Positions 8,242 to 24,323 of a stretch of 50,732 bases of DNA are shown in pieces (the first letter of the stretch is position 1; every line of letters starts with the position of its first letter). The stretch comes from Tannerellaceae bacterium (GTDB lineage Bacteria; Bacteroidota; Bacteroidia; Bacteroidales; Tannerellaceae). The stretch covers positions 1 to 50,732 of the forward strand of contig JAITGL010000003.1 in NCBI GenBank assembly GCA_031280645.1, in the 5' to 3' direction. Made by a program: the position numbers and the translations under genes. Under the pieces are notes generated by a model. The model saw nothing but the letters and a program-made list of their open reading frames with translations. It did not search any database and was not told where the DNA came from.

Positions 8242-8245
8242 TGCT

Positions 8246-8851
8246 TTATTTATATGGATTATTTTCCTGGGAGCTACGGATTATTCGGCACTTATTGCCG
8301 GCCGCCACCACCATGTCAGGGATATTTTGTCTCACAACAGAGCCGGCTCCTATAATAGCCCATTTGCCGATTGTTACTCCCGGCAGTACGGTTGCTCCCG
8401 CGCCGATCCAGGATCCTTCGCCAACTTTTACGTTGCCGCATAAGGTGGCATGAGGAGCGATATGTACAAAGCTTTCGATAACGCACTCGTGATCTATTGA
8501 GGATGCGCTATTTACAATACAGTGTTTCCCAATTTCGCTGCACGATTGGATAACCGCGCCTTGCATAACCACGGTTCCATCCTTTATTGTTGCCCGGCGC
8601 GACATAATTGCCGAAGGATGTATGGCTTTACTGAAATTGAGTTTGAGCGAACAGGCGATCTTGTATCGTGTATAATTATCGCCAATTCCTATAATCAGCG
8701 GTCCTTTCACTTGGCTTGTAGGGTAAACCATATATCCATAGTGGGAGCCAACGCTTGCATTGTCGGCAAAAAGAGCATCAACGCTGATACCGCTATCTTC
8801 AAGAATTTCAAGGATTACTTTTGCATGACCTCCTGCTCCGTATATGTACAT
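8246..8851 (-). CDS. Sugar N-acyltransferase, PglD/NeuD-like
   Basis: A 201-residue protein with an N-terminal Rossmann-like PglD domain (MYIYGAGGHAKVILEILEDSG) and a C-terminal left-handed beta-helix of hexapeptide repeats. The beta-helix is visible as repeated small-residue turns such as GKHCIVNSASSIDHEC and GNVKVGEGSWIGAGATVLPG. The His in SIDHEC is in the place of the catalytic base of PglD. It should acetylate the 4-amino group of a UDP-sugar using acetyl-CoA in the cytosol. It is flanked by the aminotransferase and the phospho-sugar transferase of the same predicted pathway. Confidence 0.88.
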   Translation of the reverse strand: MYIYGAGGHAKVILEILEDSGISVDALFADNASVGSHYGYMVYPTSQVKGPLIIGIGDNYTRYKIACSLKLNFSKAIHPSAIMSRRATIKDGTVVMQGAVIQSCSEIGKHCIVNSASSIDHECVIESFVHIAPHATLCGNVKVGEGSWIGAGATVLPGVTIGKWAIIGAGSVVRQNIPDMVVAAGNKCRIIRSSQENNPYK

Positions 8852-8874
8852 GGATTACGTTGTTGTGTATTTTT

Positions 8875-9480
8875 TTATTGATTTCCTGCAAACGGTTCCA
8901 TAGCTCCACTTGTACTTGGATTTATACCTTCCGTTAAAAACACTTTCTTCACAGTAGCCAAAAGAATTTTCACGTCCAGCAGAACAGAAACATTATCAAC
9001 ATACCATACATCCATTGCGAATTTTTCCTCCCATTTAATCAGATTTCTTCCATTTATTTGCGCCCAGCCTGTAATGCCGGGGCGCACTTCATGCCTGCGC
9101 ATTTGTTCATTATTGTATAACGGCAAATATTCAACCAACAACGGGCGAGGCCCTACCAGGCTCATGTCGCCCTTAATTACATTGATTAATTGAGGAAGCT
9201 CGTCAAGCGATGTTTTGCGAAGTATTTTACCTATAGTTGTTAAACGCTCGGAGTCGGGGAGTAGATTGCCATTCGGGCTTCGCTGGTCGGTCATTGTTTT
9301 GAATTTAATGGTCTTAAATATTTCGCATTGCTTTCCAGGGCGAGGCTGGAGGAAGAATGGTTTCCCTTTATTCGTATAAAGTAATATCATAACTATAATA
9401 ATTAAAATAGGGGAAATAATTATGATTCCGCATGTCGACAGGAATAAATCTATTATTCGTTTAATGCAATGCCTATACAT
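8875..9480 (-). CDS. Initiating phosphoglycosyltransferase, PglC-like
   Basis: A 201-residue small monotopic bacterial sugar transferase. It has one N-terminal membrane segment (IIDLFLSTCGIIIISPILII), then the family core FKTIKFKTM, KTSLDELPQLINVIKGDMSLVGPRPL and RPGITGWAQINGRN. The Asp-Glu in SLDELPQ is the catalytic dyad of this class. It would transfer a phospho-sugar from UDP to undecaprenyl phosphate on the inner face of the membrane, starting glycan assembly. Its start overlaps the end of the upstream glycosyltransferase by 8 bases. Short PglC-type length rather than the WbaP type agrees with the neighbouring PglD/PglE-like genes. Confidence 0.9.
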   Translation of the reverse strand: MYRHCIKRIIDLFLSTCGIIIISPILIIIVMILLYTNKGKPFFLQPRPGKQCEIFKTIKFKTMTDQRSPNGNLLPDSERLTTIGKILRKTSLDELPQLINVIKGDMSLVGPRPLLVEYLPLYNNEQMRRHEVRPGITGWAQINGRNLIKWEEKFAMDVWYVDNVSVLLDVKILLATVKKVFLTEGINPSTSGAMEPFAGNQ

Positions 9481-10684
9481 ATGCTACACTCTCCAGCAAA
9501 TCGACAAACTCGGTTGAAAGTTTTTCTCTTGAAAACTGATTTTCGGCAAATTTACGAGCATTTCTTCCAAGATGTTTTCGATATTGATCATCATCACACA
9601 ATGCAATTAAACCTTCTGCCAATGCTTTCGGATCGTCGGGAGGAACAACAATTCCCAAGCTATTTTCCGTGATCATATCGGCCAGCCAACCGGGATAATT
9701 ATTCAATACCGGAAGGCCGGATGAGATATAATCAAAGAATTTATTTGGTGATGTTCCATAATAAAAAGCTGGAGTATTCGAGAGAATCATCAGTCCTATA
9801 TCGGCTGATGCAATAATCTCAGATAATTTGTTTTTAGGCATTGGCGGGAAAAATATGCAATTGATAAGCTTCTCTTTGTTCGCTCTTTGTTGAAGATGAT
9901 CTTTCATTTTACCGTCGCCTATCAAGATAATTTTAATATTGCGTCTTTCAAGTTTTATCAGATGATGCGCTGCGTTAAGAATGGCATCCAAACCATTGGC
10001 TACACCATGTGCCCCGGCAAATACTGCAACTTTATCAGATGGCGTTATGCCTTCAAGCGAAATTTGCTTTCGTAGAAGCGGGTGGAATACCTCCAGATCG
10101 CATCCGTTCGGTATCATTTTTATAATTCTCGCGATGGGACTGCGCCTCTTAATTCCTTCGCATATACCGGGCGAAAGTCCGATACAGGCATCCGAACAGC
10201 GATAACTCAAATATTCCAGCAAACTCATGCATGCGATTAAAAACGGATTTTTCATTCCCAATGCTTTAGGGATTTCGGGCCATAAATCCCGTACTTCAAA
10301 TACAAAAGTTTTTCGCTTGAATATTTTTGCGATTATGCCGGGAATGCCGGCAGTTAGCGGAGTGGATGTTGCAAACAGTAAATCATAGTTTTCGCGCAAA
10401 GCAAATTTAATTCCTTGCCATGAAAACCGGATAAATATAATTGTTCGTTTGGCTATATTATCATTATTGGAATAAGGCAAATCTATTTGAGAAACACGTA
10501 TGCCGTCGATATGATCTTCACACAAATTTCTTTTAATACGAGTCAAATTTAAGTCGGTAGTCTTTCCACATACAATATGAACCGTATGACCTCTTGCAAT
10601 TAATTGCTGGGCAAATTCATACGAGCGGGTTCCTCCTGCATGACTAGGCGTTGCAAAATGTTGGTGAAAGTAAAGGATTCTCAT
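9473..10684 (-). CDS. GT4-family glycosyltransferase (WbuB-like)
   Basis: A 403-residue retaining GT-B glycosyltransferase. The N terminus MRILYFHQHFATPSHAGGTR with GTRSYEFAQQLIARGH is characteristic of WbuB-like enzymes that add the second sugar in O-antigen or capsule units. The C-terminal nucleotide-binding half contains VAVFAGAHGVANGLD and the late motif ISSGLPVLNNYPGW. It probably acts on the lipid-linked sugar made by the PglC-like enzyme encoded next to it. Its start codon shares one base with the stop of the heparinase-like gene, so translation is coupled. Confidence 0.88.
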   Translation of the reverse strand: MRILYFHQHFATPSHAGGTRSYEFAQQLIARGHTVHIVCGKTTDLNLTRIKRNLCEDHIDGIRVSQIDLPYSNNDNIAKRTIIFIRFSWQGIKFALRENYDLLFATSTPLTAGIPGIIAKIFKRKTFVFEVRDLWPEIPKALGMKNPFLIACMSLLEYLSYRCSDACIGLSPGICEGIKRRSPIARIIKMIPNGCDLEVFHPLLRKQISLEGITPSDKVAVFAGAHGVANGLDAILNAAHHLIKLERRNIKIILIGDGKMKDHLQQRANKEKLINCIFFPPMPKNKLSEIIASADIGLMILSNTPAFYYGTSPNKFFDYISSGLPVLNNYPGWLADMITENSLGIVVPPDDPKALAEGLIALCDDDQYRKHLGRNARKFAENQFSREKLSTEFVDLLESVAYV

Positions 10685-12549
10685 TAAATGATCCGTATTA
10701 AAGTTTTAATACGATTGTTTTTCGTTGCAAATTCAATTTGCTTTATTCTTTGTTTATATCCATAATATGGCGAATATTGGCCTGAGGATATTAAAGGAGT
10801 TATATCGCTACATTCAGTTTGAAGAGATTCTGAATCAGTATGCCATAATTGGCGCATTAGCGAATTGTAGGGCATATTTTCTATAACATCTTCAACGATC
10901 CATTCAGCGGAATGCTTTATTTTACGAATAGATCTTCTATGTTTTATTTTTCTGTTCAGATAAGTAAAACAGCTGATAGTTCCTTCAAAATAGTAGCTAT
11001 TCGCATCTTCATAAATATTTACATTTAAGGCCTGCGACCGGTAATACCAAATAAATCGTTCTCCCTTCAGCATTTGATCGTAATTATCCAGTATTACCGT
11101 ATTATGCGATGCCGTTCCCATGAAATATTTAAGGGTATCGCGATCGGTATTATACTTATAACTGCCACTATCTATCAATATGTTTTCGCCTTTATGCCAT
11201 ATATCAATGTGAAGATTATCAGCATGGGCAGGCCTATCATTATGTTTGCCGCAACGGATGAATGTAAGCGTATCTTTTTCCCGTATTAAATAATATCCTC
11301 CAATTTCAAATCTAATTATACCATATTCCTTTATGATAGGTTTAAAGTTATATGTAATGCTCGTTCCATACCAGCAAATATCTTCATAAATGTTTTCATA
11401 CAGAGAATTTCCGGTTAAAAGAAAATGAAGAGCATCAAGTTGAGGGCGATAATCCCTATAATCGTTACCGGATAGCTTGAAAAACAATGCTCCGTCATTT
11501 GAACCGTAATTAGGCAAATAGCCATTACTACTTTCCTGAAATTGATATAGGAATCTTATAGATTTATATGCCTTTTCATATATAACCGGCGCAAACAATT
11601 CATTGTTAAGATCCGCAATCCGAATTGCCCATGTAAGTAACTGAACAACCACGCGATGATAATTCATACTGAATTGTAAATATGCACCATCATCATATAT
11701 CTGATAGTTGATTTCCTCTTCGAACCATTTCTTTCCCTTTCGTTTCCATTCGGAAGCATTAGGAAATTGAGGAAATAAAGTTGAAACGATATAAAGAGTT
11801 AGTGTTTCGGTAATTGCATGGTTATTTCTGACTGCTATTTTTGAAAAATTAATATTGCTATATACATGATGCAACTGCCAATAAATAGAGCGAATGATTT
11901 TATCAAACAAAACCTCCGTCAAGTAAATAGAGTTTTTGTAATAATACAATATAAAAAGCCAGTTCAATAGTCGCAATGAAATCTCCTGACTGCATTTATA
12001 GTTAGGGCCACAATTGAGAGGATTCTTTTCAATCCAATCTTCAATTTGTTGGAATACAAATTCAGAATGATCTTCATCGAAATGATAGTCGTAGCGTATA
12101 ACTGTATATAAATATGAAAAGCGTGACTTCTCCCAAACATATTTTATATCTCCGGCAGCCATACCATAATCCTCAACTGCCGTCCAATGTTTACCTGTGT
12201 CGTATTTGTATCCAGTATCAGGATTAGTTATCCATTCGTCATTTAATCCCAAATTAAAGTATTGATAACTGAAAAATTGAATTCTGCCATTAATAATGTG
12301 TTCGACTTCATGTTTCAGAGTTTCGTTTGGATTTTTTTTGAAATTCAATTCCTCGCGTGATTGAAAGAAAAAAGGTTTGGAGGATGCTTTCCAGTCAGAT
12401 AGATCTAATTGTACAGCATCGATAGTAATCGGATATTTCCTTTTTAGAATGCCAGTTTTTCGTTTAATTTCGTACAACAGGCGAAAAGCAACATAGCGGA
12501 ATCCCATGTTAGACAATAATTGTCTGCATTTTGAAATTATATTAATCAA
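10684..12549 (-). CDS. Heparinase II/III-like protein of the glycan locus
   Basis: A 621-residue protein with an all-alpha N-terminal half (about 100-370), including EISLRLLNWLF and the catalytic-region motif NNHAITETLTLYIV. The beta-sandwich C-terminal half contains HADNLHIDIWHKGENILID, FMGTASHNTVILD and the tail WHTD. This is the layout of heparinase II/III lyases. No signal peptide is visible, so it probably acts in the cytosol. Members next to WecB/WecC-type genes are common in O-antigen loci, where their reaction is not established; acting on a uronic-acid-containing intermediate is an inference. It overlaps both neighbours by a few bases. The coding sequence is AT-rich. Confidence 0.8.
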   Translation of the reverse strand: MINIISKCRQLLSNMGFRYVAFRLLYEIKRKTGILKRKYPITIDAVQLDLSDWKASSKPFFFQSREELNFKKNPNETLKHEVEHIINGRIQFFSYQYFNLGLNDEWITNPDTGYKYDTGKHWTAVEDYGMAAGDIKYVWEKSRFSYLYTVIRYDYHFDEDHSEFVFQQIEDWIEKNPLNCGPNYKCSQEISLRLLNWLFILYYYKNSIYLTEVLFDKIIRSIYWQLHHVYSNINFSKIAVRNNHAITETLTLYIVSTLFPQFPNASEWKRKGKKWFEEEINYQIYDDGAYLQFSMNYHRVVVQLLTWAIRIADLNNELFAPVIYEKAYKSIRFLYQFQESSNGYLPNYGSNDGALFFKLSGNDYRDYRPQLDALHFLLTGNSLYENIYEDICWYGTSITYNFKPIIKEYGIIRFEIGGYYLIREKDTLTFIRCGKHNDRPAHADNLHIDIWHKGENILIDSGSYKYNTDRDTLKYFMGTASHNTVILDNYDQMLKGERFIWYYRSQALNVNIYEDANSYYFEGTISCFTYLNRKIKHRRSIRKIKHSAEWIVEDVIENMPYNSLMRQLWHTDSESLQTECSDITPLISSGQYSPYYGYKQRIKQIEFATKNNRIKTLIRII

Positions 12550-14659
12550 TGCTTATCCAGGATTGAGATTTTAAACTTTCAATACAGGCAAAACTCGCCT
12601 TGGTCGTATTTATAATACTCTCAAATGGAATCAATGATTCCCCACCATTTCTCATTCTTTCGTTTAATAAAGCAAACTGGGCCTGATGTCCTTTATCTTG
12701 CCGACTCTTTATTCTGGAAAAGTGCTTAAAACCATATCCTTTCAATACTTTCCAATTATCCATAATTAGGGTTCTTTCTTGGGAGTATACCTCAATCCTT
12801 TCTTTGGAATATGCTTTACTGCCATTTGAAAAATAATTAATACTTGCATTTGCGCCGTTTTCATATTTCAAAAGAATAGAGCCGTTATCCGTGTTTTCTA
12901 TTAAACCTATACCTAAAGCATTCATGCAAACCGCAACAATACGACTGCCGGATAAATATGAACATAGATCGATCAAATGACATGCTTCACCGATAATTCG
13001 TCCACCGCCAATTGCCAGATCATGCACCCAGATTTCAGGAGGTATCAATCCTGCATTCATTGTAGCAATAATATTCATAGGAGAATGAGCTAATAATTGT
13101 TTCATTTTGATTGCAAATGGAGAAAATCGTCGATTGAAGCCAACATTTATAGTGAGATTTTGTTTTTGTTTATATAGATCTATTATTGCCGATAGTTCGT
13201 TTTTATTCAAGCATAATGGCTTTTCAACAAACACATTCTTGTTAGCATTCAAACAATCCATAATTATATGCGCATGATTGTTGTGCCTTGTTGCAATCAA
13301 CACAAGCTCTATTTCTGGATCGTTCAGTATTTCATTATAATCAGAAACGGCATATTCAGCCTTTGCTTTTTTAGCAAGATTTTTGGCCGATAAACCCTGT
13401 GCACTTGCAATATATTTGATTTTTGCATTCGCTTTGTGTAAGGCGGGCAACATTGTTGCAGAACTAAAATTTCCTGCGCCGATAATTCCTATCCTGCCTT
13501 TTGATATAGTAAAGTCAGCAGTTTTAATTTTAACAATTGTTTTGGCTGTTATTTGTTCCGGATATTTCAAAATGGAGGCAATGACTCCTTCCTTCTTCAT
13601 ATCTCCATAAACTTCTTCGTATTTACATAATGGGACAATTTCGGATATAAATGGTTTTACATCTAATGAACCGGATGAAATAGCGTGCAATACAGTTTCA
13701 AAATTTCGTTTTTCAGTCCATCGTACATAAGCAATCGGATAATCCAATCCTTTATTTTCGTAGTTGTCATCGTATCGTCCCGGACCGTATGAGCATGATA
13801 CCTGAAATGTGAGTTCTTTTTTATAGAAATCCTCACGGCGAATATTCAGTTCTATAACTCCAACTAAAATAATGCGTCCACGCTTGCGCGACATTTGTGC
13901 CGCCTGATGTATTATTTCATTATCTTTTGCAGAAGCCGTGATTATTACACCATCAGCACCAATACCTGCAGTTTGCTCCATCACTAAACTTATTATTTCT
14001 CCATCAGTTATTGGATTAAAAGCAATAACTCCTTTGCCTTTTGCAATATTTACTTTTTGCCTATCAATATCAATTCCAATAACACGACATCCGTTGGCTT
14101 TCAATAACTCGGCCGAAACCAATCCAATTAAACCAAGCCCGATGACAACAATAGTTTCACCTAATGTTGGCTGCAGTAGTCTTATTCCCTGCAATCCAAT
14201 AGAACCGATAACAGTAAATGTTGCTTCCTCATCAGATACGTTATCCGGAATTTTTACAACAAGATTTCGAGGCACACAAACAATCTCTGCATGTGCACCG
14301 TTTGAAGCAACACGATCGCCCTCACGAAAATCGCTTACACCTTTGCCAACAGCAATAATTCTTCCAACATTGCAATAACCAAGCGGCAATGGTAATCCTA
14401 ATTTATTAACTACGGCGTCCAATGTCGGAAGTAAACCATCTGCTCTTATTTTATCCAATACCTGAATTACTCTTTCAGACTGCTGTCGTGCTTTTGTAAT
14501 TAAATTGGCTCGCCCAAATTCAACAAGCATTCGTTCGGTTCCTAATGATACAAGTGAGCGTGTTGTTTGAATCAACACGAATCCTTCACAGACTTTCGGT
14601 GCCGGGATTTCTTCCAGTATTGTTTCACCGGTCTTTAGATTTAGTATTAGTTGTTTCAT
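12542..14659 (-). CDS. Two-domain oxidoreductase: MDR dehydrogenase fused to Gfo/Idh/MocA
   Basis: A 705-residue natural fusion. Residues 1 to about 350 are a medium-chain zinc-type alcohol dehydrogenase, with GDRVASNGAHAEIVCVPR and the NAD-binding GLGLIGLVSAELLKANG. Residues about 385-705 are a Gfo/Idh/MocA oxidoreductase starting GRIGIIGAGNFSSATMLPAL, with the EKPLCLN signature near 490. Both halves would bind a nicotinamide cofactor, suggesting a two-step redox change such as an epimerisation on a sugar. This fusion often accompanies the heparinase-like protein in polysaccharide loci, and here they overlap by 8 bases. The substrate is unknown. The DNA is AT-rich compared with the flanks of the window. 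Confidence 0.85.
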   Translation of the reverse strand: MKQLILNLKTGETILEEIPAPKVCEGFVLIQTTRSLVSLGTERMLVEFGRANLITKARQQSERVIQVLDKIRADGLLPTLDAVVNKLGLPLPLGYCNVGRIIAVGKGVSDFREGDRVASNGAHAEIVCVPRNLVVKIPDNVSDEEATFTVIGSIGLQGIRLLQPTLGETIVVIGLGLIGLVSAELLKANGCRVIGIDIDRQKVNIAKGKGVIAFNPITDGEIISLVMEQTAGIGADGVIITASAKDNEIIHQAAQMSRKRGRIILVGVIELNIRREDFYKKELTFQVSCSYGPGRYDDNYENKGLDYPIAYVRWTEKRNFETVLHAISSGSLDVKPFISEIVPLCKYEEVYGDMKKEGVIASILKYPEQITAKTIVKIKTADFTISKGRIGIIGAGNFSSATMLPALHKANAKIKYIASAQGLSAKNLAKKAKAEYAVSDYNEILNDPEIELVLIATRHNNHAHIIMDCLNANKNVFVEKPLCLNKNELSAIIDLYKQKQNLTINVGFNRRFSPFAIKMKQLLAHSPMNIIATMNAGLIPPEIWVHDLAIGGGRIIGEACHLIDLCSYLSGSRIVAVCMNALGIGLIENTDNGSILLKYENGANASINYFSNGSKAYSKERIEVYSQERTLIMDNWKVLKGYGFKHFSRIKSRQDKGHQAQFALLNERMRNGGESLIPFESIINTTKASFACIESLKSQSWISID

Positions 14660-14694
14660 TTGTAATTAGTAATTTGAATGATTATTATTATATT

Positions 14695-14940
14695 TTAGTA
14701 GTAAATATCATCTCCGCTATAGCTTGGGATTAGTAGAAAAAAATACGCAAACAGTATCCATAATCCATCCCTTTCTATATCCAAACGAGATGACTCCGGG
14801 GCTAACTTTACATTGGTGATAAACCAAGGCTTTTCCAAGTCTAATGCTGAGCTGAATAATGATAATGAATCCAAAGAAATAAAATTAACTGCGGATAGAG
14901 CCCTATTTTCATAAATATGGTCAAAGGTTGAGGCACTATT
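14695..14940 (-). pseudogene. Remnant of an ISL3-family transposase N terminus
   Basis: Reading the minus strand from 14940 gives 81 open codons to a TAA at 14695-14697, with no start codon. The middle contains LFSSALDLEKPWFITNVKL followed by APESSRLDIE, which resembles the N terminus of ISL3-type transposases (an LGL..PW.V..v.f......LDI pattern). The expected cysteine-rich zinc ribbon is missing: after LDIERDG the reading becomes unrelated. No terminal inverted repeats or catalytic residues remain. It is in frame with, and directly follows, the stop of the upstream glycosyltransferase. Assignment rests on about 30 residues. Confidence 0.5.
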
Positions 14941-15933
14941 TTATATATTTTTAATTACATTGCTTATATCCAAGTATCTTCTTGAATAGCTAAACTTATT
15001 GTTGATTATTTCGATCGCTTTTATTGAATATTGTTTTTTTCTTTCACAATCATTCAATAATAAATTCAATTCATTTTTTATCATCTCAATATCATAACCA
15101 CTTATAATAACCCCACTATCTCCAACAACATTTTGAACTTCTCCCACGTCAGAAACGACAACAGGCGCTCCACAGGCCATAGCTTCCGCAATTGCCAGAC
15201 CAAAACCTTCATACTTTGATATTTGAAAATATATCTCACATTGTTGTAGCAATGCTATTTTGTCGCTTTCACTAATTTCGCCTAATATCTTAATCCTTCC
15301 ATTCAGCTTCTTACCATTTACGTATCTTGTTAAAGAATCATATCCATCACCTTTTCTTCCGGCTATATAATAATATACATCATTTTCTTTAGATAATAAT
15401 TCAAAAGCGTCTATCATTTCGTATAGGCATTTTCTTGCCATATTACTTTTTTGCATCCAACTAATCGTAAAAATAAATTTTATCTGTACACTTTTCATTG
15501 CAGGAAAGTATTTATTGGTTTCCACAATATGAGGAGAATATGTCGTATTTTTCAAATTCCAATATGCTGTTACCAATTTATATTCATTCAATGAAACAAA
15601 AATATTTTTGCCTGCGTTTTTTACAGAATATCTTATTAGGATACGTTCAATTAACGGACGTCTAAAATAATCCGAGTTAGCTTCAGGGCATTTAAAATTA
15701 AAAGTACCTGTAATTATAACCTGTTTTCTGAAAATTTTTGATATAAAAACTGGCACAAATGCCCATGTCCACCACCAAATAAAAATTATGTCGCATGACC
15801 AATCAATTTGTTCCCATTTAGTAGCGATCTTAACTTCATACCCAAGATCCCTTAAAATATCAATATCCTGTTTATAAAAGCCAACAATATTCAATGCCTG
15901 TTTTTCAACTTTTGCAAAAAAACATATTTTCAT
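14941..15933 (-). CDS. GT4-family glycosyltransferase
   Basis: A 330-residue GT-B enzyme, slightly short for the family. The C-terminal half has the GT4 E-x7-E pattern in KYEGFGLAIAEAMACGAPVV (about 243-262) and a preceding KILGEISESDKIALLQQCEI loop. The N-terminal half is less conserved but begins with a Rossmann strand (MKICFFAKVEKQ). It should add one sugar to the growing lipid-linked unit at the cytosolic face. It overlaps the polymerase gene by 4 bases. Base composition is strongly AT-rich, consistent with import together with its two upstream neighbours. Donor and acceptor are unknown. Confidence 0.82.
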   Translation of the reverse strand: MKICFFAKVEKQALNIVGFYKQDIDILRDLGYEVKIATKWEQIDWSCDIIFIWWWTWAFVPVFISKIFRKQVIITGTFNFKCPEANSDYFRRPLIERILIRYSVKNAGKNIFVSLNEYKLVTAYWNLKNTTYSPHIVETNKYFPAMKSVQIKFIFTISWMQKSNMARKCLYEMIDAFELLSKENDVYYYIAGRKGDGYDSLTRYVNGKKLNGRIKILGEISESDKIALLQQCEIYFQISKYEGFGLAIAEAMACGAPVVVSDVGEVQNVVGDSGVIISGYDIEMIKNELNLLLNDCERKKQYSIKAIEIINNKFSYSRRYLDISNVIKNI

Positions 15934-17081
15934 ATTCTTTTAAGTGTTATCTTATAATTAATACCAATAGATATTATAAACCAATATAATAATCCAAGTC
16001 TTATATTATTGTGCGTCAAAAAAACCTCAAAATGCTGTTGTATTAATATCGATGTCGTAAATGCAGTAACATATTTAATTTGTTTTTCATTGCGAAAGTA
16101 CCAAAATATATCATAGACATGTTTGAAAAACAGTATTAGAAATGATAGTCCAAGAATTCCAACAGAAGTCAAGGTTTGTAAATAAAAATTGTGTGATGAT
16201 AATTCACTATACAATATTGATCGATGCCCTCCAGCACCGTATCCTAATATCGGGTTTCTTATAATTGCTGAAATTAATTGTGGCCACAATATATCTCTAC
16301 CTGAATTTAGTCTTGCTCCGGTATATTTTATGCTAATATCACTATAATTTTCCAAAAAACCAGTGACATCATGCATGGATACAAGGATAATAACAAGAAG
16401 CACGCCTATATTTGCAAAAAGCAGTAAATAAAAAATGTATTTCCTCCCTTTCAAGAATTTCCATGAATAGCTTATACTTATAAAAATAACAACTGATATA
16501 TATATAGATCTTGCAAACGCAAATATGATACAAAAGAGAACTAAAAGTCTGTATATGATTAAATATAAATGAGATACCTTCCTCTCAAGAAAATATGATA
16601 TTACAAATAAAAAAAATAAAAAACCAGCATAAATATTTGTGTTCGGGAAAAATGCACAATATGCTTCAGATTTAATCGTCGCTATTTCACGAGTTGATAA
16701 AAATCCAATATTTACAATTATTAAATAGAAGAAAAAATAAAAAAGTTTCTCGTTGAAAATATTTTCAAAATTTCCAAAAGGCAATACTGACACACCAATA
16801 CATACTCCAAATATCGTCAGTGCTGTATAATAATCAAACTCTGAAGCCCAAAAATATGAAAGAAAATAAATCAACGAATATATAAATAAAGGAGAGAAAA
16901 ATAAAAAACACTCTTTACCTAAAATATATTTAGAATTTAAACAGAAAGAAATAAAAAAATATGCTATTAAAACAAAAAGCAATATACTTCCAATAGTTTT
17001 TGTTATCGAATCATTGTTATAATATATTATGGAAGTGAATAACAATGCGAATATAAAAAGTATATTAGTATGTTTTATCAT
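15930..17081 (-). CDS. O-antigen polymerase/ligase-like membrane protein (Wzy candidate)
   Basis: A 383-residue protein made of about ten hydrophobic helices, with a longer loop after the middle. The segment DILWPQLISAIIRNPILGYG followed by AGGHRS and SHNFYLQTLTSVGILGL is the typical periplasmic-loop signature of the O-antigen ligase/polymerase (Wzy_C) family. It would join repeat units on the periplasmic side. Its place between flippase and glycosyltransferase genes favours polymerase over ligase. Sequence in this family is poorly conserved, so the call rests on topology, the loop motif and context. It overlaps the flippase gene by 17 bases. The DNA is very AT-rich. Confidence 0.8.
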   Translation of the reverse strand: MIKHTNILFIFALLFTSIIYYNNDSITKTIGSILLFVLIAYFFISFCLNSKYILGKECFLFFSPLFIYSLIYFLSYFWASEFDYYTALTIFGVCIGVSVLPFGNFENIFNEKLFYFFFYLIIVNIGFLSTREIATIKSEAYCAFFPNTNIYAGFLFFLFVISYFLERKVSHLYLIIYRLLVLFCIIFAFARSIYISVVIFISISYSWKFLKGRKYIFYLLLFANIGVLLVIILVSMHDVTGFLENYSDISIKYTGARLNSGRDILWPQLISAIIRNPILGYGAGGHRSILYSELSSHNFYLQTLTSVGILGLSFLILFFKHVYDIFWYFRNEKQIKYVTAFTTSILIQQHFEVFLTHNNIRLGLLYWFIISIGINYKITLKRI

Positions 17082-18312
17082 CTATTGTATAATTTGAAAT
17101 TTTAATTAGGGTTATAAATGTCATTAAATTAAAAAGAAACATACAAAAAAAATGTCCTAACACATATATAGAAAAATTCAGTTTATAATGATAAGAAAGC
17201 ATTGGTATGATAAAAAAAACACACATAAATCTTGGAATTTCTATTTGCATGGCAATTGAATATTTACCCCAAAGATTTAATAGGTGCATAAATGGATAGC
17301 TGAATAATTCTATCATACTGAAAAATATAATAATGCCAATATATTTCCCTCCATTTCTCCATTGTTCTCCCCAAATAGCTCCGACTATATCTTGTCCAAA
17401 CAAGTAAAATGTCAATGAAATAATGAGGAATGTCATTATAATATAAGTTGAGAATTTATCAAGGATGAATTTGTGAAAGAATGGGATGAAAGAATCTTTA
17501 AACTTACTCGATGTATTTAATTCCGATGTACAGATATTAATCAACGAACGTCTGGGTATTGATGTGACTGCGCTAATAGATTGAGTGATTAAGAAATAAA
17601 TGCCTAATGTGTGCGAAGAAAAAATAAAATTGCCGATTAACATTGGAGCTATTGGAGTTGACCATTGCATTGCAGAGATAAATGTGCTATTAATACTGTA
17701 TCGTATATTATCCTTGAAGATTGATAAAAGTTTTCCTAATGATATGTTAAAATGGATTTTAAGTTTAGTTAATAAAAAATATGACGCCACTATTTGTCCT
17801 ATAATAAAGGAATAGATTAATCCTTGATATAAAAGTATGGAACCAAATACTAATGCAAATCCGTATTGTATGATTCCTTGCATCGCGCGCGATATGGATA
17901 ATTCTTTATATCGTAATAAAGCGACTGAAAACTGTGTGGCAATATTATATATTGCTATTGAAAATAGTGCCGGGAAAAGTATAGAAAAACTATAATTGAA
18001 AAATCTTGGTAAGATAATACTTGCTATAATTGTGAAAACAACTACTGAAATAATTGATAATACAAAAAAATATTGAAGATTATTCTTTTTTATAAAAAAA
18101 GCATAATCAAAACGAGATGCCGCAATGATGGAGAAAAAATAGACAAGCGCATTTAATGTACCAAAGGTTCCAAAATCATTAGGAGAATATAAACGAGATA
18201 GAATAGGAGTAATTATAACAGCTATGATTTGAACTAATAAGCCGGCTCCAGACATTTGAATAAAAGCTTTAATAACTTTATTTTGCAAGATTATTTTTAG
18301 CATTTTCATCAC
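17065..18312 (-). CDS. Oligosaccharide flippase (Wzx-like)
   Basis: A 415-residue polytopic membrane protein with about twelve predicted helices. The start, MMKMLKIILQNKVIKAFIQMSG followed by helix 1 and LSRLYSPNDFGTFGTLNALV, is the standard opening of Wzx/MATE-like polysaccharide exporters. It would flip the undecaprenyl-linked repeat unit to the periplasm. It leads the three-gene AT-rich group flippase-polymerase-glycosyltransferase, in which every junction overlaps. Upstream lie about 645 bases without a gene, filled mostly by a degenerate 21-base periodic repeat. No convincing promoter was found directly before it. Confidence 0.85.
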   Translation of the reverse strand: MMKMLKIILQNKVIKAFIQMSGAGLLVQIIAVIITPILSRLYSPNDFGTFGTLNALVYFFSIIAASRFDYAFFIKKNNLQYFFVLSIISVVVFTIIASIILPRFFNYSFSILFPALFSIAIYNIATQFSVALLRYKELSISRAMQGIIQYGFALVFGSILLYQGLIYSFIIGQIVASYFLLTKLKIHFNISLGKLLSIFKDNIRYSINSTFISAMQWSTPIAPMLIGNFIFSSHTLGIYFLITQSISAVTSIPRRSLINICTSELNTSSKFKDSFIPFFHKFILDKFSTYIIMTFLIISLTFYLFGQDIVGAIWGEQWRNGGKYIGIIIFFSMIELFSYPFMHLLNLWGKYSIAMQIEIPRFMCVFFIIPMLSYHYKLNFSIYVLGHFFCMFLFNLMTFITLIKISNYTIDDKTY

Positions 18313-18545
18313 ACAAAGATGATTATTATGTTTGTATGTTTTACCACTTTGTCAAATTCAAAAAGCCAACATTGATATTTAAATATTATTTTACGCAATG
18401 ATTTGTTCATGATAGAATCAAATCTTTAAGAGTATAACTCTATATTTTGTTAGTATACATTTCATCAGCTATGTACCTGTCGGTTATTAGATAGTTATCA
18501 AACCGGTTATTCACATATTTTCACTACACTTCTATCTCACGTTAT

Positions 18546-18860
18546 GCGAAATGCCAATTCACATGTAAAATCGCGATTCTCACAATGTGACAATCGCCTC
18601 ACCAAATATATTTTGTATGCTTTAATTCTTATGGCATTAATTCAAAATGTATTTGCATGCATTCAAATTGAAACCGTGCTTTTCCTAAAATAGAATGGAG
18701 TATTTCAAGTTGAAAAGCGACTTTCTCAAAATAGGATTGAATCTTTTAGAGTTGCAATCGTACTTTTCTAAGATGGAGTGGGAGTATATCCAAGATAAGA
18801 TCATATACTTTCAAAATTAGATGAACTTTTTTGAAGTTCGGAATATCAAAACAAAGATTG
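18546..18860. repeat. Degenerate 21-base periodic array (about 15 units)
   Basis: The 645-base gap between wecB and the flippase gene holds no supported gene. Cut into 21-base rows from 18546, the sequence shows a recurring pattern of a GC- or CG-containing start, a T-run in the middle and CAA/AAAAT toward the end. It is clearest as 42-base units at 18664 (CAAATTGAAACCGTGCTTTT), 18706 (CAAGTTGAAAAGCGACTTTC), 18748 and about 18790. One step is 43 bases, so the phase is not protected as codons would be. Confidence 0.65.
18573..18597. other. 25-base near-perfect palindrome
   Basis: The arms GCGATTCTCACA and TGTGACAATCGC flank one central A, and 11 of 12 positions pair. It lies inside the gap upstream of the flippase gene. 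It could be an operator or a cruciform. It could also be an accident of two neighbouring 21-base repeat units, since a related TTCACATGTAAAATCGC lies one period upstream. Confidence 0.5.
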
Positions 18861-18957
18861 TAATGATGTGGTCGTTTGCTCCATTCATCCTTTTAACTTT
18901 TGAATTTGATGTTTTTATATTCCACAATACACATATTTCAACGAACTTGAATAATAT

Positions 18958-20082
18958 TCATATCACTTCCACTATCCTTTCGCACGCTCTCCCATCACCA
19001 TAAGGATTATGCGATTGAGACATTTGATTGTACCACTGTCTGTCCTGCAGCAACAGATTTACATTTGTTACTATGTTATTTGTATTGGCTCCAACAAGCT
19101 TAACCGTCCCGGCTTTAACTGCTTCGGGCCGCTCGGTCGTGCTGCGCATTACTAAAACGGGCTTGCCCAGCGATGGGGCTTCTTCTTGTACGCCGCCGCT
19201 GTCGGTTAATATCAAATGGGAGTTTTGCATCAAATAAATAAATGGTAAATAGTTTAGGGGAGATATGAGGTAGATGTTGGATCTGTTGCTCAGAAGTTCA
19301 AATACAGGTTTTTGTACGTTAGGATTGAGGTGAACAGGATATACGATATCAATGTCGGGATGTTTGTGGGCTATCTCGCTGAGGGCTTTGCAAATGGCGA
19401 AAAATCCGTCGCCGAAATTTTCTCGTCTGTGGCCGGTTACAAGAATATATTGGTTGTTTTTCATCAAATAACCTGCTGCCGCAATTTCCTTTATTATATT
19501 CTCTTGCAACTCACGCTTTGTTTTAATCATATTTACGGCCATCAGAAGCGCATCTATAACGGTATTGCCGGTCACATAGATATTTTGTGAATTTATCTTC
19601 TCGGAAATAAGATTGTTCTTGGCTGTTTCGGTGGGCGCAAAACAATATGTGCAAAGGCGATCGGTTAATTGGCGGTTCATTTCTTCGGGCCAGGGAGAGT
19701 ATAAATTATATGTGCGGAGACCGGCTTCTATGTGTGCAATTTTTATTTGTTGATAGAATGAAGCAATTGTTGCAGCCATTGATGTGGTGGTATCTCCGTG
19801 AACAAAAACAACGTCGGGGTTACATTCCTTTAATACATTTCTTAATCCAAGTAATACTTTTGCGGTTATATCGTAAAGATCCTGATCGGGCGACATTATG
19901 TTTAAGTCGTAATCTGCTTTAATGTCGAAGACTTCAAGTACCTGATCCAGCATTTGCCGATGCTGGGCAGTTATACAAACCAGGGATTCAAATTTATCGG
20001 AATGTTTTTGAAATTCCTTCACTAATGGAGCCATTTTGATTGCTTCGGGCCTGGTGCCGAAAACAAGTAGTACCTTTTTCAT
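18958..20082 (-). CDS. wecB: UDP-N-acetylglucosamine 2-epimerase (non-hydrolysing)
   Basis: A 374-residue protein starting at MKKVLLVFGTRPEAIKMAPL. It interconverts UDP-GlcNAc and UDP-ManNAc in the cytosol. Signatures are GTRPEAIKMAPL at the N terminus, FVHGDTTTSMAATIAS near 95, HIEAGLRTYN near 120, TGHRRENFGDG near 205 and DSGGVQEEAPSLGKPVLVMR near 285. I chose the start at 20082 because its ATG overlaps the wecC stop as ATGA, a coupled-translation arrangement; an ATG 15 bases upstream is possible. The product feeds WecC. Confidence 0.95.
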   Translation of the reverse strand: MKKVLLVFGTRPEAIKMAPLVKEFQKHSDKFESLVCITAQHRQMLDQVLEVFDIKADYDLNIMSPDQDLYDITAKVLLGLRNVLKECNPDVVFVHGDTTTSMAATIASFYQQIKIAHIEAGLRTYNLYSPWPEEMNRQLTDRLCTYCFAPTETAKNNLISEKINSQNIYVTGNTVIDALLMAVNMIKTKRELQENIIKEIAAAGYLMKNNQYILVTGHRRENFGDGFFAICKALSEIAHKHPDIDIVYPVHLNPNVQKPVFELLSNRSNIYLISPLNYLPFIYLMQNSHLILTDSGGVQEEAPSLGKPVLVMRSTTERPEAVKAGTVKLVGANTNNIVTNVNLLLQDRQWYNQMSQSHNPYGDGRACERIVEVI

Positions 20083-21296
20083 TTTCTTATTCCACAAAAA
20101 TCAAGTTCTATCTTAGATTTATTTTCGGGTATGTCGTAAAATTGCTTGTGCGCAATTAGCCATGCAACGATGTCTGCTTTACGGTACGCTTCTTCATAAC
20201 CGGTGAGTTGAAAGGTTGCGTGACGTGAGATATTGGGCTCAACAACCAAAACCTCTACGTTTGATTCGCTTAATATTCGGGATGTTATATATTTCGCAGG
20301 CGATTCTCTCAAATCGTCGATATTGGGTTTGAAGGCTAAACCCATGCAGGCAATGACAGGTTCGCGTCCGTTCTGCGATTCAAACAATCTGCTTTCTGCC
20401 AATACTTTTCCTGCGCACCAATCAGCCTTGTAATCGTTAGTTTCGCGCGAACGTTTAATTATTTGTGCCTGTTCGGGATAATCGGAGACGATAAACCACG
20501 GGTCAACTGCGATGCAGTGTCCGCCTACTCCCGATCCCGGCTGTAATATATTAACTCGCGGATGTTTGTTTGCGAGATTTATCAGCTCCCATACATTTAT
20601 CCCAGCCTTATCACAGATCATTGACAACTCGTTGGCAAAAGCAATCTGCACATCTCGTGAAGAATTTTCAACAAGCTTGCACATTTCTGCGGTACGTGCG
20701 TTTGTGGGATGTAAACTCCCTTTTACGAATTGCGAATAAAAATTTATCGCCTTTGTTGTCGATTCTGGGTTTATCCCGCCAATCACGCGGTCGTTATGTT
20801 CAAGTTCATGAAGTACGTTCCCCGGCAAAACTCTTTCGGGACAGTATGCGATGAAAATTTTATCTCTCAAGTCCGGACGCTCCTTAAAAATCAGAGCCGC
20901 CATTCTGTCGGTTGTTGAAACGGGCGAGGTCGATTCGATTACAAATAAATCGCCGTTTTTCAGCAACGGAATAACGCTCCTCGTTGCAGTTTCCACATAC
21001 GAAATATCCGCCCGGTGATTTTGCTTGAAAGGCGTAGGGACAACTATAAAATAAGCCTCGGCAATTTCGGACTTTGTTGAAGCGCGCAAAGTCCCGTTGG
21101 ATGTAGTTTTCTCTACCAGCGTTTTTAAATGCGGTTCAACAATATGGATTTCGCCGCGGTTTACCGTATCTACAACATCCGGATTTATATCCACGCCAAG
21201 TACGCTCAAGCCTTTAGACGCTGCGAAAGCTGCCGTTGGAAGGCCGATGTAGCCTAAGCCGATGAAGACGGCGTTTGTGGTTGTTTTATTCATCAA
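20079..21296 (-). CDS. wecC: UDP-N-acetyl-D-mannosamine dehydrogenase
   Basis: A 405-residue UDP-sugar dehydrogenase that oxidises UDP-ManNAc to UDP-ManNAcA with two NAD. The NAD-binding GLGYIGLP is at 13-20, FIVVPTPFK near 83 and the nucleophile Cys261 lies in GSGVGGHCIAVDP. MGLAFKPNIDDLRESPA in the C-terminal domain binds UDP. The WecC type, rather than UDP-glucose dehydrogenase, is supported by the coupled wecB gene downstream. A second ATG at 21293 is equally possible as start. The acid sugar it makes may be what the heparinase-like and two-domain oxidoreductase proteins of this locus act on (inference). Confidence 0.93.
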   Translation of the reverse strand: MMNKTTTNAVFIGLGYIGLPTAAFAASKGLSVLGVDINPDVVDTVNRGEIHIVEPHLKTLVEKTTSNGTLRASTKSEIAEAYFIVVPTPFKQNHRADISYVETATRSVIPLLKNGDLFVIESTSPVSTTDRMAALIFKERPDLRDKIFIAYCPERVLPGNVLHELEHNDRVIGGINPESTTKAINFYSQFVKGSLHPTNARTAEMCKLVENSSRDVQIAFANELSMICDKAGINVWELINLANKHPRVNILQPGSGVGGHCIAVDPWFIVSDYPEQAQIIKRSRETNDYKADWCAGKVLAESRLFESQNGREPVIACMGLAFKPNIDDLRESPAKYITSRILSESNVEVLVVEPNISRHATFQLTGYEEAYRKADIVAWLIAHKQFYDIPENKSKIELDFCGIRK

Positions 21297-21389: not shown

Positions 21390-23306
21390 TCAGGCGCTCA
21401 AATCGTCTAACACCTCAAACTCCGACTGCCTGCTCCTAAACTCCGGCGCAAGCTCCTTCATCTTCCGAACCGTTTCGATAATTCGCACCGCCTCTGCCGA
21501 CGCGCAAAGCGATTGGAGTTCAGGCAGTATCGTTGCATAGTTATACTCGCGCACCTTGGCGCGGAATATTTTGCGGTTCGAGGTGGGGAGGCTCGTTTCG
21601 CTGTCGGCAAGAAGCTCCTCGTAGAGCTTTTCGCCGGGACGGAGGCCGGTGTATTCTATTAATATGTCGCGGTCGGGCTCAAGGCCGGCAAGCTCTATCA
21701 TGCGGCGGGCAAGGCGGTCGATCTTGACCGGAGATCCCATGTCGAATACGAAAATTTCGTTGCCCTCGCCCATGCAGGCCGCCTCGAGTACCAATCTGCA
21801 TGCCTCGGGAATGGTCATGAAAAAACGTACAATCTCGGGATGAGTTACCGTTAAAGGACCGCCTTTTATCAACTGCTCGCGGAAACGGGGTATCACCGAA
21901 CCGTTGCTGCCCAGCACGTTACCGAATCGAGTGGTGATGAACCTCGGCGAGCCGGCAGAGCCCTTGGCTGTGTCGAGGCTTTGTACATATATCTCGGCCA
22001 AGCGTTTCGACGCCCCCATCACGTTAGTGGGATTCACGGCCTTGTCGGTTGAAATCATTATGAATTTTTCGGCGCCGAACCTTACCGCGGCGTCGGCCAC
22101 AATCATCGTGCCGCCTACGTTGGTGCCGACAGCCTCGCACGGATTCTCCTCCATCAGAGGCACATGCTTGTAGGCCGCGGCGTGAAAGACGGTTTGAGGC
22201 GAAAAGCGTTTGAAGGCCGATTCTACGCGGCTTTTGTTGCGAATGTCGCCCATGATGGGGTGGAGCGCAACGGCGGGAAACTCGCTCTCAAGCTCGAGGC
22301 GGAGGTTGTGCATCGGGGTTTCGGCGCAGTCGAAAAGTATAAGATCGCTCACCCCCACGCTGCATAATTGCCGGCAAAGCTCGCTCCCGATCGAACCCGC
22401 GGCGCCGGTTATCATCACCGATTTGCCGCTCAGGCTGTGGGTGATAGCCTCTGTGTTTATCTCTATTTCCCTCCTCTCGAGCAAGTCTTCAATCCGCACT
22501 TCGGGGATGCTGAGGCTCTTTGCGCGGCCGTTAACAATTTCAACAACCGGAGGCGCTATCATCATCCTTATCCTCTTTTTCTCGCAATAGCGAATCAGGC
22601 GGTTTTCTTCCTCTCTAACAGAGGATTGGTTGGGAAATAATACCGCGGCTACGCGGCGGCGACGGATAAGGCGGTCGAAATCTTCGGCGGTTTCGATCCA
22701 GTAAACGGGATATTCGCCGATGCGACCGTGACCGTTGCGACCGAATTTTACGTAGCCCATAATTTTATATTCCTGCCCGATACGTCCCAGGATAGAGGCG
22801 GTTGATGAAAGAGGATTAACGCCCGAATCGAACAGCAGGATGCCGGCCTTGTCGGCCCGGCCGGCAAATGTTCCGATAAAATAGTTGTAGGCTGCGATCA
22901 GGCCGGCGCGCACCAAAACGAGCGCCAGGAATGTAAAGAAAAGGTCGGCCACGGCTTCGGTTGTAAGGAGGCCGGTATTGCGTACGCCGGCGGCAAAAAA
23001 CATGCCTGCAAATATCAATCCGGCCTTAACGAGGGCGGCCATGGCGATGCGGCCCACTTCTACAAAGCCTGCGTGACGTATCACCGTGCGGTAGGTTTGG
23101 GTCCAGAAGATGGCAACGGCGCTTCCGGCGGCCGAGAAGAGCATGAATTTTGCGACCGTTGTATAAGGAATACCGGCAGCTATGAGCGGCTGCATAAATA
23201 ATAATGTAAGCCCTGTGCATGAAAATGACAGGGCAAGGTCGATCAGAAAAATAATCCACCTGTTGAGATATTTTATGTGTGAAAGGTAATCAGCAAACGT
23301 TTTCAT
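21390..23306 (-). CDS. PglF/CapD-like UDP-sugar 4,6-dehydratase, membrane form
   Basis: A 638-residue protein with four N-terminal membrane helices (about 15-125), a middle nucleotide-binding domain, and a C-terminal short-chain dehydrogenase domain opening GKSVMITGAAGSIGSELCRQ (about 280). The active-site region reads MISTDKAVNPTNVMGASKR, with the MxxxK variant of the YxxxK motif found in PglF/FlaA1-type dehydratases. It should convert UDP-GlcNAc to the 4-keto-6-deoxy sugar that PglE/PglD-like enzymes then aminate and acetylate. I chose the start at 23306 (MKTFADYLSHIKYLN), where the first helix begins. It heads the glycan locus and lies about 180 bases downstream of the promoter in the putative invertible segment. 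Confidence 0.9.
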   Translation of the reverse strand: MKTFADYLSHIKYLNRWIIFLIDLALSFSCTGLTLLFMQPLIAAGIPYTTVAKFMLFSAAGSAVAIFWTQTYRTVIRHAGFVEVGRIAMAALVKAGLIFAGMFFAAGVRNTGLLTTEAVADLFFTFLALVLVRAGLIAAYNYFIGTFAGRADKAGILLFDSGVNPLSSTASILGRIGQEYKIMGYVKFGRNGHGRIGEYPVYWIETAEDFDRLIRRRRVAAVLFPNQSSVREEENRLIRYCEKKRIRMMIAPPVVEIVNGRAKSLSIPEVRIEDLLERREIEINTEAITHSLSGKSVMITGAAGSIGSELCRQLCSVGVSDLILFDCAETPMHNLRLELESEFPAVALHPIMGDIRNKSRVESAFKRFSPQTVFHAAAYKHVPLMEENPCEAVGTNVGGTMIVADAAVRFGAEKFIMISTDKAVNPTNVMGASKRLAEIYVQSLDTAKGSAGSPRFITTRFGNVLGSNGSVIPRFREQLIKGGPLTVTHPEIVRFFMTIPEACRLVLEAACMGEGNEIFVFDMGSPVKIDRLARRMIELAGLEPDRDILIEYTGLRPGEKLYEELLADSETSLPTSNRKIFRAKVREYNYATILPELQSLCASAEAVRIIETVRKMKELAPEFRSRQSEFEVLDDLSA

Positions 23307-23442
23307 CTTAAATATTTGTAGTATGCCGCCATCGGTAGAGCATGTGGCGAACGGGTACGGCGAAAGTACGCCGGTAACATGAAGCATTACGCAACTATTT
23401 GGTTATCCGTTATTTATCTTAGGATTATCTTCCCCGGTTCCG

Positions 23443-23771
23443 GTTCCTCCTCTTGCATAGAAGGGGAACTCTCGCGGCTTTTTAGCGGCCGCAAATGTAC
23501 AAAAGATTTTGAGATTGCAAGTTATTGGAGAAAATTTTTTGCGAATAATCGGCACGCATCCCCGGGGCGCTTAGCTCCGCCTGCTGTGAATTAATATGTT
23601 TAACGGAATGTTTGTCGGATTTTTCGCCTTAATATCACAGTACCAGCATTTTTTCGCCCCGTGTTTAATAATTGTTGAACGCGGGGCACATTCCCCTCAT
23701 TTTACGCCCCTGTGCTGCAACATTCAACCGCTTTTTAATCTCCGGTTCCCCTTCTATGCAATAAGCGGAAC
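23443..23771. other. Putative invertible promoter segment flanked by 27-base inverted sites
   Basis: Arms at 23443-23469 and 23745-23771 are inverted copies, matching at 24 of 27 positions, with 17 consecutive identical bases (TTGCATAGAAGGGGAAC at 23453-23469). Each arm is itself a dyad: GTTCCTCCTCT, a TGCAT centre and AGAAGGGGAAC on the left; the right arm uses GTTCCGCTTAT as the variable half. Two inverted 11-base half-sites round a short centre is the design of a site-specific recombinase target. The 275 bases between contain a consensus promoter facing the glycan locus and a hairpin at 23660-23688. No recombinase gene is in the window. Inversion itself is inferred. Confidence 0.75.
23492..23520 (-). 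promoter_or_regulatory. Promoter inside the putative invertible segment, facing the glycan locus
   Basis: On the minus strand, TACATTTG (23499-23492) is a perfect -7 element. TTG (23520-23518), as part of CTTG, lies 18 bases upstream. Transcription would begin near 23485, cross the left inverted site, and reach the PglF-like start at 23306 after a leader of about 180 bases. Confidence 0.65.
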
Positions 23772-23877
23772 GCCGCGCGCCATCCGGCCAAAACCTTAGC
23801 GATATGTAAAAAATAACCGCCCGGCGATATCCCCCGAAAAAATATTTTTGAAAATCATTAAAAAAACGCCTCAAACA

Positions 23878-23910
23878 TTTGGAGTATTAAAATATATGTT
23901 CATACCTTTA
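23878..23910 (+). promoter_or_regulatory. Promoter upstream of the repeat-containing leader and unknown gene
   Basis: TTTG at 23878-23881, a 21-base spacer and TACCTTTA at 23903-23910 fit the Bacteroidetes -33/-7 pattern with one mismatch. Transcription would start near 23917, so the gene at 24333 would have a leader of about 415 bases containing the 21-base array. Confidence 0.55.
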
Positions 23911-23933
23911 CGCCGTTAAAAAAACGAGCAGCA

Positions 23934-24323
23934 ATGAACGAAATTTTTCAGCATGCAATACATAATGGAAGCGCCGCCCGGCCGACAGAGGGAGCCGGGA
24001 GGAGTTTGCAGCGCGACGGGAAGCAATTCCAGCCGGGCGCGGATAAATTCCGTTTTGCAGCGAATATTTTTTTGACTTTTTCATGCGTTTCGGGGACGGC
24101 ACCGGAAACCTTGGGGACGGCACCGGAGATCTCGGGGACGGCACCGGAGACTTCGGGGACGGCACCGGAGACCCTGGGGACGGCTCCGGAAACCCTGGGG
24201 ACGGCACCGGAAACCCTGGGGACGGCTCCGAAGACCTCGGGGACGGCTCCGGAAAGGTCGAAAACAGCTTCCAACAACACGCACGCCTGCGAGAATTATC
24301 TAAGTATCAATCTATTAAATTAA
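23934..24323 (+). CDS. Doubtful small protein with 7-residue repeats
   Basis: An open frame of 129 codons begins 17 bases after the predicted start of transcription and ends 9 bases before the next gene. Residues 1-50 are unremarkable. Residues about 53-110 are eight near-identical heptads of the type GTAPETL. In its favour are the promoter, the spacing and the absence of any frameshift in eight repeat units. Against it, the repeat is open in several frames on both strands, the composition resembles other intergenic arrays here, and no family is recognised. It may be only a transcribed leader. Confidence 0.25.
   Translation: MNEIFQHAIHNGSAARPTEGAGRSLQRDGKQFQPGADKFRFAANIFLTFSCVSGTAPETLGTAPEISGTAPETSGTAPETLGTAPETLGTAPETLGTAPKTSGTAPERSKTASNNTHACENYLSINLLN
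24092..24259. repeat. 21-base tandem array, eight units
   Basis: Units start at 24092, 24113, 24134, 24155, 24176, 24197, 24218 and 24239. Each begins GGGGACGGCACCGGA or GGGGACGGCTCCGGA, with a variable last third. Spacing is exactly 21 throughout. The array is GC-rich, unlike the AT-rich 18.6 kb array, but has the same period. Confidence 0.95.

Follow-up and report, generated by a model that had tools for sequence, protein, structure and literature searches.

A probable invertible promoter between 27-base inverted sites ahead of a surface-glycan locus in a Tannerellaceae bacterium

The glycan locus and the inverted arms in front of it

The window analysed here, that is, the whole stretch of 50,732 nucleotides, contains a glycan locus at 7108-23387 whose every gene lies on the minus strand and which is presumably a single transcription unit. 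Its first gene is PglF-like, and the genes that come after it encode a UDP-sugar dehydrogenase, a UDP-GlcNAc 2-epimerase, a Wzy_C protein, glycosyltransferases, a dehydrogenase/oxidoreductase, a heparinase-like protein, a sugar transferase, a PglD-like transferase and a DegT aminotransferase. Only 55 bases lie between the open reading frame (ORF) of the PglF-like gene and the nearer of two inverted arms, which enclose a short segment with a predicted promoter; the features are, in order of position:

7108..21296, minus strand: rest of the predicted regulated glycan locus (Pfam)
21390..23387, minus strand: first glycan gene, a PglF/CapD-like nucleotide-sugar dehydratase (Pfam Polysacc_synt_2, E 4e-114)
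23443..23469, plus strand: left inverted site, with outer half GTTCCTCCTCT, centre TGCAT and inner half AGAAGGGGAAC
23470..23744, no strand: segment of 275 bases between the arms, predicted to invert; segments of the same site family occur in both orientations in relatives
23492..23520, minus strand: predicted promoter, with -7 element TACATTTG (23499-23492) and TTG box (23520-23518), a sequence match only
23745..23771, minus strand: right inverted site, with the minus-strand reading GTTCCGCTTAT TGCAT AGAAGGGGAAC

The G+C content is 0.40 in the glycan locus and 0.51-0.54 around it, and the values of 0.28-0.30 in the core of the locus (14941-18958) suggest a horizontal origin of that core; the PglF-like gene, at 0.54, is like the rest of the window. 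The true start of this gene may be the ATG at 23306, because many homologue matches begin at residues 22-40.

An earlier note on this DNA had reported two inverted 27-base sites with 24 of 27 positions matching, an unbroken run of 17 identical bases and 275 bases between the sites, and precisely such a pair was found, base for base, at 23443-23469 and 23745-23771. Its further assertion that a 17-base inverted match would very rarely arise by chance was borne out, as none of 200 first-order Markov sequences of window length contained any exact inverted match of 17 nt at a distance of 30-1000 bp; apart from the arms, the window holds a single inverted match of 17 nt, which is a short hairpin near 282-327. 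The picture of each arm as a dyad of half-sites around TGCAT holds too: the dyad is present in both arms, but it is imperfect (9 of 13 half positions), and dyads scoring at least 9 are common, being found at 89 positions in the window, which makes the dyad score by itself unremarkable. It also had to be refined, since the part conserved alike in both arms, i.e., the 17 identical bases, consists of the spacer and the inner half-site, while the outer half-sites diverge (3 of 11 positions differ). The 7-base centre, TTGCATA, is asymmetric and identical in the two arms, and a dyad pattern written from the arms, with up to 3 mismatches allowed, matches the window at the two arm positions only, with 0.02 matches expected.

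The -7 element at 23499-23492, with a TTG 18 bases upstream and aimed at the glycan locus, could likewise be confirmed as a sequence. It is the sole TAnnTTTG octamer in the 275-base segment, faces the PglF-like gene and lies 22 bases from the left arm. As chance would place about 0.23 TAnnTTTG octamers in 275 bp of the window (both strands), the presence of the octamer alone is weak evidence; the stronger point is the 22-base distance between octamer and arm, which is the same in two loci of the related genome G025 (L126 and L127). In addition, a 23-nt stretch of the window promoter is 96% identical to the corresponding part of locus L190. A weaker octamer, TACTTTCG, reads on the minus strand from 23368, inside the called ORF of the PglF-like gene, and, were the true start of that gene at 23306, it might act as a second promoter outside the switch, in which case the OFF state would be leaky. 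Sequences that resemble a -7 element and read rightward are found at 23843 and 23903, outside the segment, and the rightward genes therefore need not depend on inversion.

Several minor features of the window may be recorded here. A 21-base tandem repeat at 24092-24255 encodes GTAPET-like repeats within the ORF at 23934-24323, and an Rfam search over 22800-25000 returned only a sub-threshold guanidine-II match (24193-24251) inside that repeat, which is probably due to chance. The protein encoded at 24333-25118, for which a Pfam search gave no match, has several distant copies per genome in relatives, with 9 matches in G002. Long tandem repeats are found at 6500-6702 (42-base period), 36240-36631 (42/126) and 44565-44749 (21/42/62).

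A family of sites in relatives

Among 123 genomes of the family to which G007 belongs, GldM places G024 (94%), G025 (92%) and G002 (83%) nearest to the window; the related metagenome-assembled genomes presumably come from termite guts, judging by their isolate names. In 15 of 74 loci, an inverted repeat of at least 16 nt is found within 1.2 kb upstream of the PglF homologue, some of these repeats being unlikely switches. These 74 were taken from 80 PglF loci, with L016, L023, L053, L054, L056 and L060 left out; of these six, five start no more than 212 bases from the locus end and one (L056) at 1195, and some of the retained loci have little upstream sequence too. Two loci, L001 and L014, carry GTACCRCTTCTTRSTAAGAAGYGGTAC-like sites upstream of PglF, the best of which (L014:1327) is identical to the right arm of the window at 20 of 27 positions, as counted by eye. 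Both have three such sites (L001:53, 575 and 814; L014:1327, 1698 and 1915), so more than one inversion product is possible there.

A degenerate pattern, GTWCCNCTTNTNNNNNANAAGNGGWAC, written from the sites of L001, L014 and the window, has 12 exact matches in 7 of the 123 Tannerellaceae genomes, the reversed-pattern control having none in the same 123, and none in 393 genomes from across the order Bacteroidales. A slightly looser pattern with up to one mismatch gives 42 sites in 17 of the 123 genomes, against 15 sites in 14 genomes for the reversed control. Of the 11 loci fetched around sites, ten have a second site (up to 4 mismatches) 197-357 bases away, start to start, the two forming an inverted match at 22-27 of 27 positions; a repeat finder shows the pair in at least 9 of the 11. 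The remaining locus, L135, has no second site, shows no pair with the repeat finder and was excluded from the segment, site-model and arm-comparison counts. The genes adjoining the segments differ in kind, with SusC-like receptors in L128, L129, L130, L132, L134 and L136, an MBOAT acyltransferase in L126, a BspA-type LRR protein in L131, an operon with zf-HC2 and caspase-like domains in L127, and PglF in L001 and L014. In 6 of 12 relative loci, as in the window, the distance from the octamer TAnnTTTG to an arm is 19-22 bp, and the segment is devoid of any TAnnTTTG in 4 of the 12.

Comparison of the two arms within each of 19 relative loci shows columns 11-21 to be identical in every one, with the mismatches mostly in the outer half, and the 7-base centre to be identical within each pair and different between loci; the TGCAT of the window differs from the relatives' centres. 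Nearly identical inner half-sites and varying outer ones are thus seen in these 19 loci as they are in the window (23443-23771). In one genome, G016, near-identical one-mismatch sites of the GTACCGCTTCCTACTAAGAAGCGGTAC type occur on contigs C55, C82, C91, C96, C106 and C108, some of them near contig ends, which would suggest either a dispersed repeat or many switches.

At up to 3 mismatches, the window site itself has no copy in the 11 genomes, the 123 Tannerellaceae genomes and the 393 Bacteroidales genomes searched; the 17-base exact word of the site occurs in no stretch of the viral contigs, a looser dyad pattern has no exact match in the 80 loci, and an inverted-repeat search of the right-hand SIS gene neighbourhoods in G025 and G002 gave, among the matches listed, no pair like that of the window. 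As to a lack of related sites in close relatives, which the earlier note had named as counting against the switch, clear relatives of the site are present, but none within 3 mismatches, and none in G024. This genome (2.1 Mb), the closest by GldM, yielded neither sites nor an orthologue of the recombinase described below, and the system is therefore not universal among the closest relatives.

Whether the window arms fit this family can be judged from three site models built without the window, in all of which the two arms take ranks 1 and 2 among all window positions. A strand-symmetric model of 40 sites from 19 relative loci gives the arms 21.6 and 21.4 bits, while the next window position has -4.0 and no shuffle out of 200 exceeds 12.7. 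As part of this 40-site set came from the pattern written with the window in view, a second model was built from the 18 sites first found as inverted repeats, and it gives 23.4 and 20.2 bits, with 5.0 for the next position and 19.2 for the best of 200 shuffles; for both models, the registers of the sites in recombinase-adjacent loci were chosen so as to fit the pattern best. A third model, of 24 sites from 12 loci, gives 21.4 and 15.5 bits (the latter for the left arm), the next position scoring 0.0. When applied to 1.35 Mb of other PglF loci, the 24-site model has 15 matches of at least 6 bits, at least one of which, at 16.8, exceeds the left arm, so that the score of a single arm is no proof; two such matches in inverted orientation, 275 bases apart, are nevertheless far from chance. 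On these scores, the window arms can be assigned to the recombinase-linked site family of the relatives.

Direct comparative evidence that segments of this family invert is provided by three of the SusC loci (L128, L130 and L136), compared with SusC turned to the right. Their SusC-side right flanks align plus/plus (78% for L128-L130, 74% for L130-L136 and 85% for L128-L136), and the segments of L128 and L136 also align plus/plus (77%); the segment of L130, however, aligns in minus orientation only, both to L128 (E 5e-25) and to L136 (2e-28). The promoter octamer near the arm points toward SusC in L130 and away from it in L128 and L136.

A candidate recombinase

That no recombinase gene is nearby, as the earlier note had remarked, agrees with what was seen: there is no tyrosine-recombinase-like frame among 332 stop-to-stop frames of at least 60 aa in the 50.7-kb window, and no Pfam match to a serine recombinase among the 30 window ORFs searched. 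With no tyrosine recombinase gene in the 50.7 kb, inversion would call for an enzyme that acts in trans.

Tyrosine recombinases (PF00589) were matched in 12 of 13 genomes. Proteins of the XerC/XerD type were rejected as the special recombinase, being widespread, with a XerD-like protein in 12 of the 12 PF00589-bearing genomes, sites or not, and so was a larger cluster of proteins of mostly about 410 residues, which also includes the site-less G002 and G023. A cluster of seven proteins has one member of about 396 residues in each of G016, G017, G018, G020, G025 and G026, the last having a second one (38-40%), and was seen neither in the site-bearing G095, G001 and G006 nor in the site-less G002, G023, G024 and G028; the clustering omitted some weak or truncated PF00589 hits (e.g., G018:C136 and C81, G001:C2, G006:C1 and C123, G020:C74, G016:C19 and G002:C32). 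The two members tested have Arm-DNA-bind_5, Phage_int_SAM_5 and Phage_integrase domains, and R249, K275, R345, H368 and Y377, invariant in the seven aligned recombinases, are presumably the catalytic residues. In the protein collection, the G025 recombinase has relatives at 73-74% identity over nearly the full length (P0002-P0004), as well as a fragment at 83% (P0005).

Matches with at least 49% identity to the recombinase exist in at least 19 of 123 genomes, one of them over 155 residues only. With sites taken at up to one mismatch, such an orthologue is found in 13 of 17 site-bearing genomes and 6 of 106 others (Fisher 4e-10, which overstates the case because the genomes are related, the 49% cut was chosen after viewing the list and no more than 15 candidates per genome were scored), and with exact sites only, in 6 of 7 site-bearing genomes and 13 of 116 others (Fisher 4e-5). 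Six genomes have the orthologue and no site within one mismatch; conversely, G095 and G041 have sites and no orthologue at E<=1e-60, and G001 and G003 partial matches of 46-47% only.

Of 18 orthologue loci, 7 have a site pair adjoining the gene for the recombinase and 11 have none. According to a coordinate reading, six of these pairs are no more than about 70 bases from the 3' end of that gene and the seventh is about 630 bases away; TAnnTTTG is found 20-24 bp from an arm in 5 of the 7 loci, and in G026 the pair is located between the recombinase gene and a SusC-like gene. As to direction, the octamer faces the recombinase 3' end only in six of the seven recombinase-adjacent segments (L212, L213, L215, L216, L218 and L222), which in L218, that of G026, means away from the SusC-like gene, and L221 has octamers both ways. 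The site model has matches in 10 of the 18 close-orthologue loci and in none of 12 loci of homologues at 42-45%, and the type of site therefore follows the recombinase subfamily. The flanks of the enzyme gene, up to 1.5 kb on either side, show no pair of the site type in G016, G017, G018, G020 and G025, where the sites are located on separate contigs; this supports action in trans. The proposal that the enzyme acts in trans thereby gains support from relatives, in which the recombinase subfamily tracks the sites yet can lie apart from them.

Proposed mechanism, rival explanations and known systems

The reading that we favour, with a probability of about 0.87, is that the 275 bases between the 27-base sites are inverted by a tyrosine recombinase whose gene lies elsewhere in the genome, and that the glycan locus is thereby switched on and off. 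A promoter flipped by a recombinase is what the earlier note had proposed, and the inverted pairs of relatives, the window-excluded models, the opposite orientations of homologous segments and the co-occurrence with a recombinase all speak for it. The recombinase would bind the two half-sites of 10-11 bases in each arm, with strand exchange taking place inside the shared 7-base centre TTGCATA. As the segment lies now, transcription from the promoter would cross the left arm and enter the PglF-like gene, a state that, going by promoter direction only, would be ON; in the inverted orientation, the promoter would point to the right, away from the locus, which would then be OFF. The enzyme itself would be an orthologue of the recombinase of about 396 residues with the Arm-SAM5-Phage_integrase arrangement, able to act away from its own gene.

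A former invertible promoter that is now locked, either by divergence of the outer half-sites or by loss of the recombinase, would explain the 3 of 11 differing positions in the outer halves and would suit the lack of both recombinase orthologue and sites in the closest genome, G024. We regard this as rather improbable, since divergence of the outer halves is usual in relatives, both arms keep high site scores and an identical stretch of 17 bases would be expected to drift if it were unused. Far less probable still is that the near-palindromes are operators of a dimeric transcription factor, perhaps with looping, between which DNA does not invert: each arm is a dyad and one is located a little way downstream of the promoter, as operators might be, but these need no fixed mutual orientation, yet the relatives' sites form inverted pairs, and a centre that is identical within a pair and variable between loci fits strand exchange rather than operator recognition. 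Homologous segments in both orientations, and pairs beside recombinase genes in 7 of 18 loci, argue against operators too. An attenuator, i.e., an RNA hairpin formed by the left arm in the predicted leader of the glycan mRNA, is hardly credible, for the arm does fold as a hairpin, but no better than shuffles (z -0.97 and -0.79), the terminator scan has none at the left arm and the right arm is left unexplained. A small non-autonomous transposable element (MITE) with the arms as its terminal repeats would account for inverted repeats around a short non-coding segment, but is just as implausible, given that only stretches of 23 and 35 nt are common to the window segment and the segments of relatives and that 23380-23900 has no match by DNA similarity in the plasmid or phage collections.

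Switching by a recombinase, the preferred reading, is a mechanism of a known kind, the Bacteroidales invertible promoter. In B. fragilis, the tyrosine recombinase BF2766/Tsr19 inverts one local and one distant promoter (IVp-I and IVp-II; PMC4747536), Tsr0667 inverts SusC/SusD and other regions, and Mpi, one global enzyme with distant targets, inverts capsule promoters (both PMC4747536; PMC12632263). The Tsr19/Tsr0667 promoters resemble those described here in having TAnnTTTG between inverted repeats and in their polysaccharide and SusC/SusD targets, local as well as distant, and the multi-repeat IVp-I has its likeness in L001 and L014, with three sites upstream of PglF (PMC4747536). The claim that Bacteroides capsule loci use invertible promoters of this plan stands, as the Mpi-type serine-invertase capsule promoters have the same architecture and the same type of target (PMC4747536). 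Invertible promoters directly downstream of invertase genes are also on record, some of which drive resistance genes carried by Bacteroidales ICEs (PMC8748976), as is the tying of inverton groups to invertase groups by proximity (PMC11892184). The pairs located directly 3' of the recombinase in 6 of 18 orthologue loci are reminiscent of such local-invertase invertons, from which the window differs in having no tyrosine recombinase gene in 50.7 kb. Bacteroides capsular polysaccharide (CPS) loci often have upxY and upxZ as their first two genes (PMC12632263), whereas the first gene in the window, 55 bases from the left arm, is PglF-like, and the locus does not follow the UpxY/UpxZ arrangement.

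The sites themselves appear to set the window apart from these systems. Its site is a 27-base dyad of the GTWCC type, which may be distinct from the sites of Tsr19 and Tsr0667, and its arms are unlike the AACGTTCGT-type dyad, which we take to be the Mpi-type site. A literature search for the exact site word found no paper, searches for the Mpi-site words gave, among the matches listed, only unrelated papers, and, on invertons or phase variation in the termite gut, the matches listed contained only an unrelated phage isolation study. The GTWCC site type and the recombinase subfamily appear undescribed in the literature covered, from which the original B. fragilis site papers were absent. While the mechanism is one to be expected in Bacteroidales, the additions are thus the site code, the link to an enzyme and the several kinds of target genes.

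A broader proposition, to which we would give even odds, is that one master tyrosine recombinase with a site code of its own (GTWCC-n-CYTnT, a 5-base centre, then the mirrored half) flips promoters scattered over the genomes of this Tannerellaceae clade, ahead of glycan loci, SusC receptors, an acyltransferase, an LRR protein and caspase-like operons, and that PglF-led loci have kept the switch and swapped the class of enzyme, with a tyrosine recombinase for the window and an Mpi-like, serine-type site in G002. If such a master recombinase exists, each cell would draw one of many surface combinations. The site model, together with the candidate recombinase subfamily, would make the phase-variable promoters of this Tannerellaceae branch listable from sequence alone. 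The case of G002 suggests, moreover, that an on/off switch for a glycan can stay in its place even as the class of its recombinase changes: upstream of its PglF homologue lies a perfect 30-base inverted repeat (L113:4878-4907 and 5073-5102) with a dyad of the AAAACGTTCGTTTT type, which we assume to be Mpi-like, so that the same type of gene looks to be under a switch of another recombinase class, its octamer facing away from the gene.
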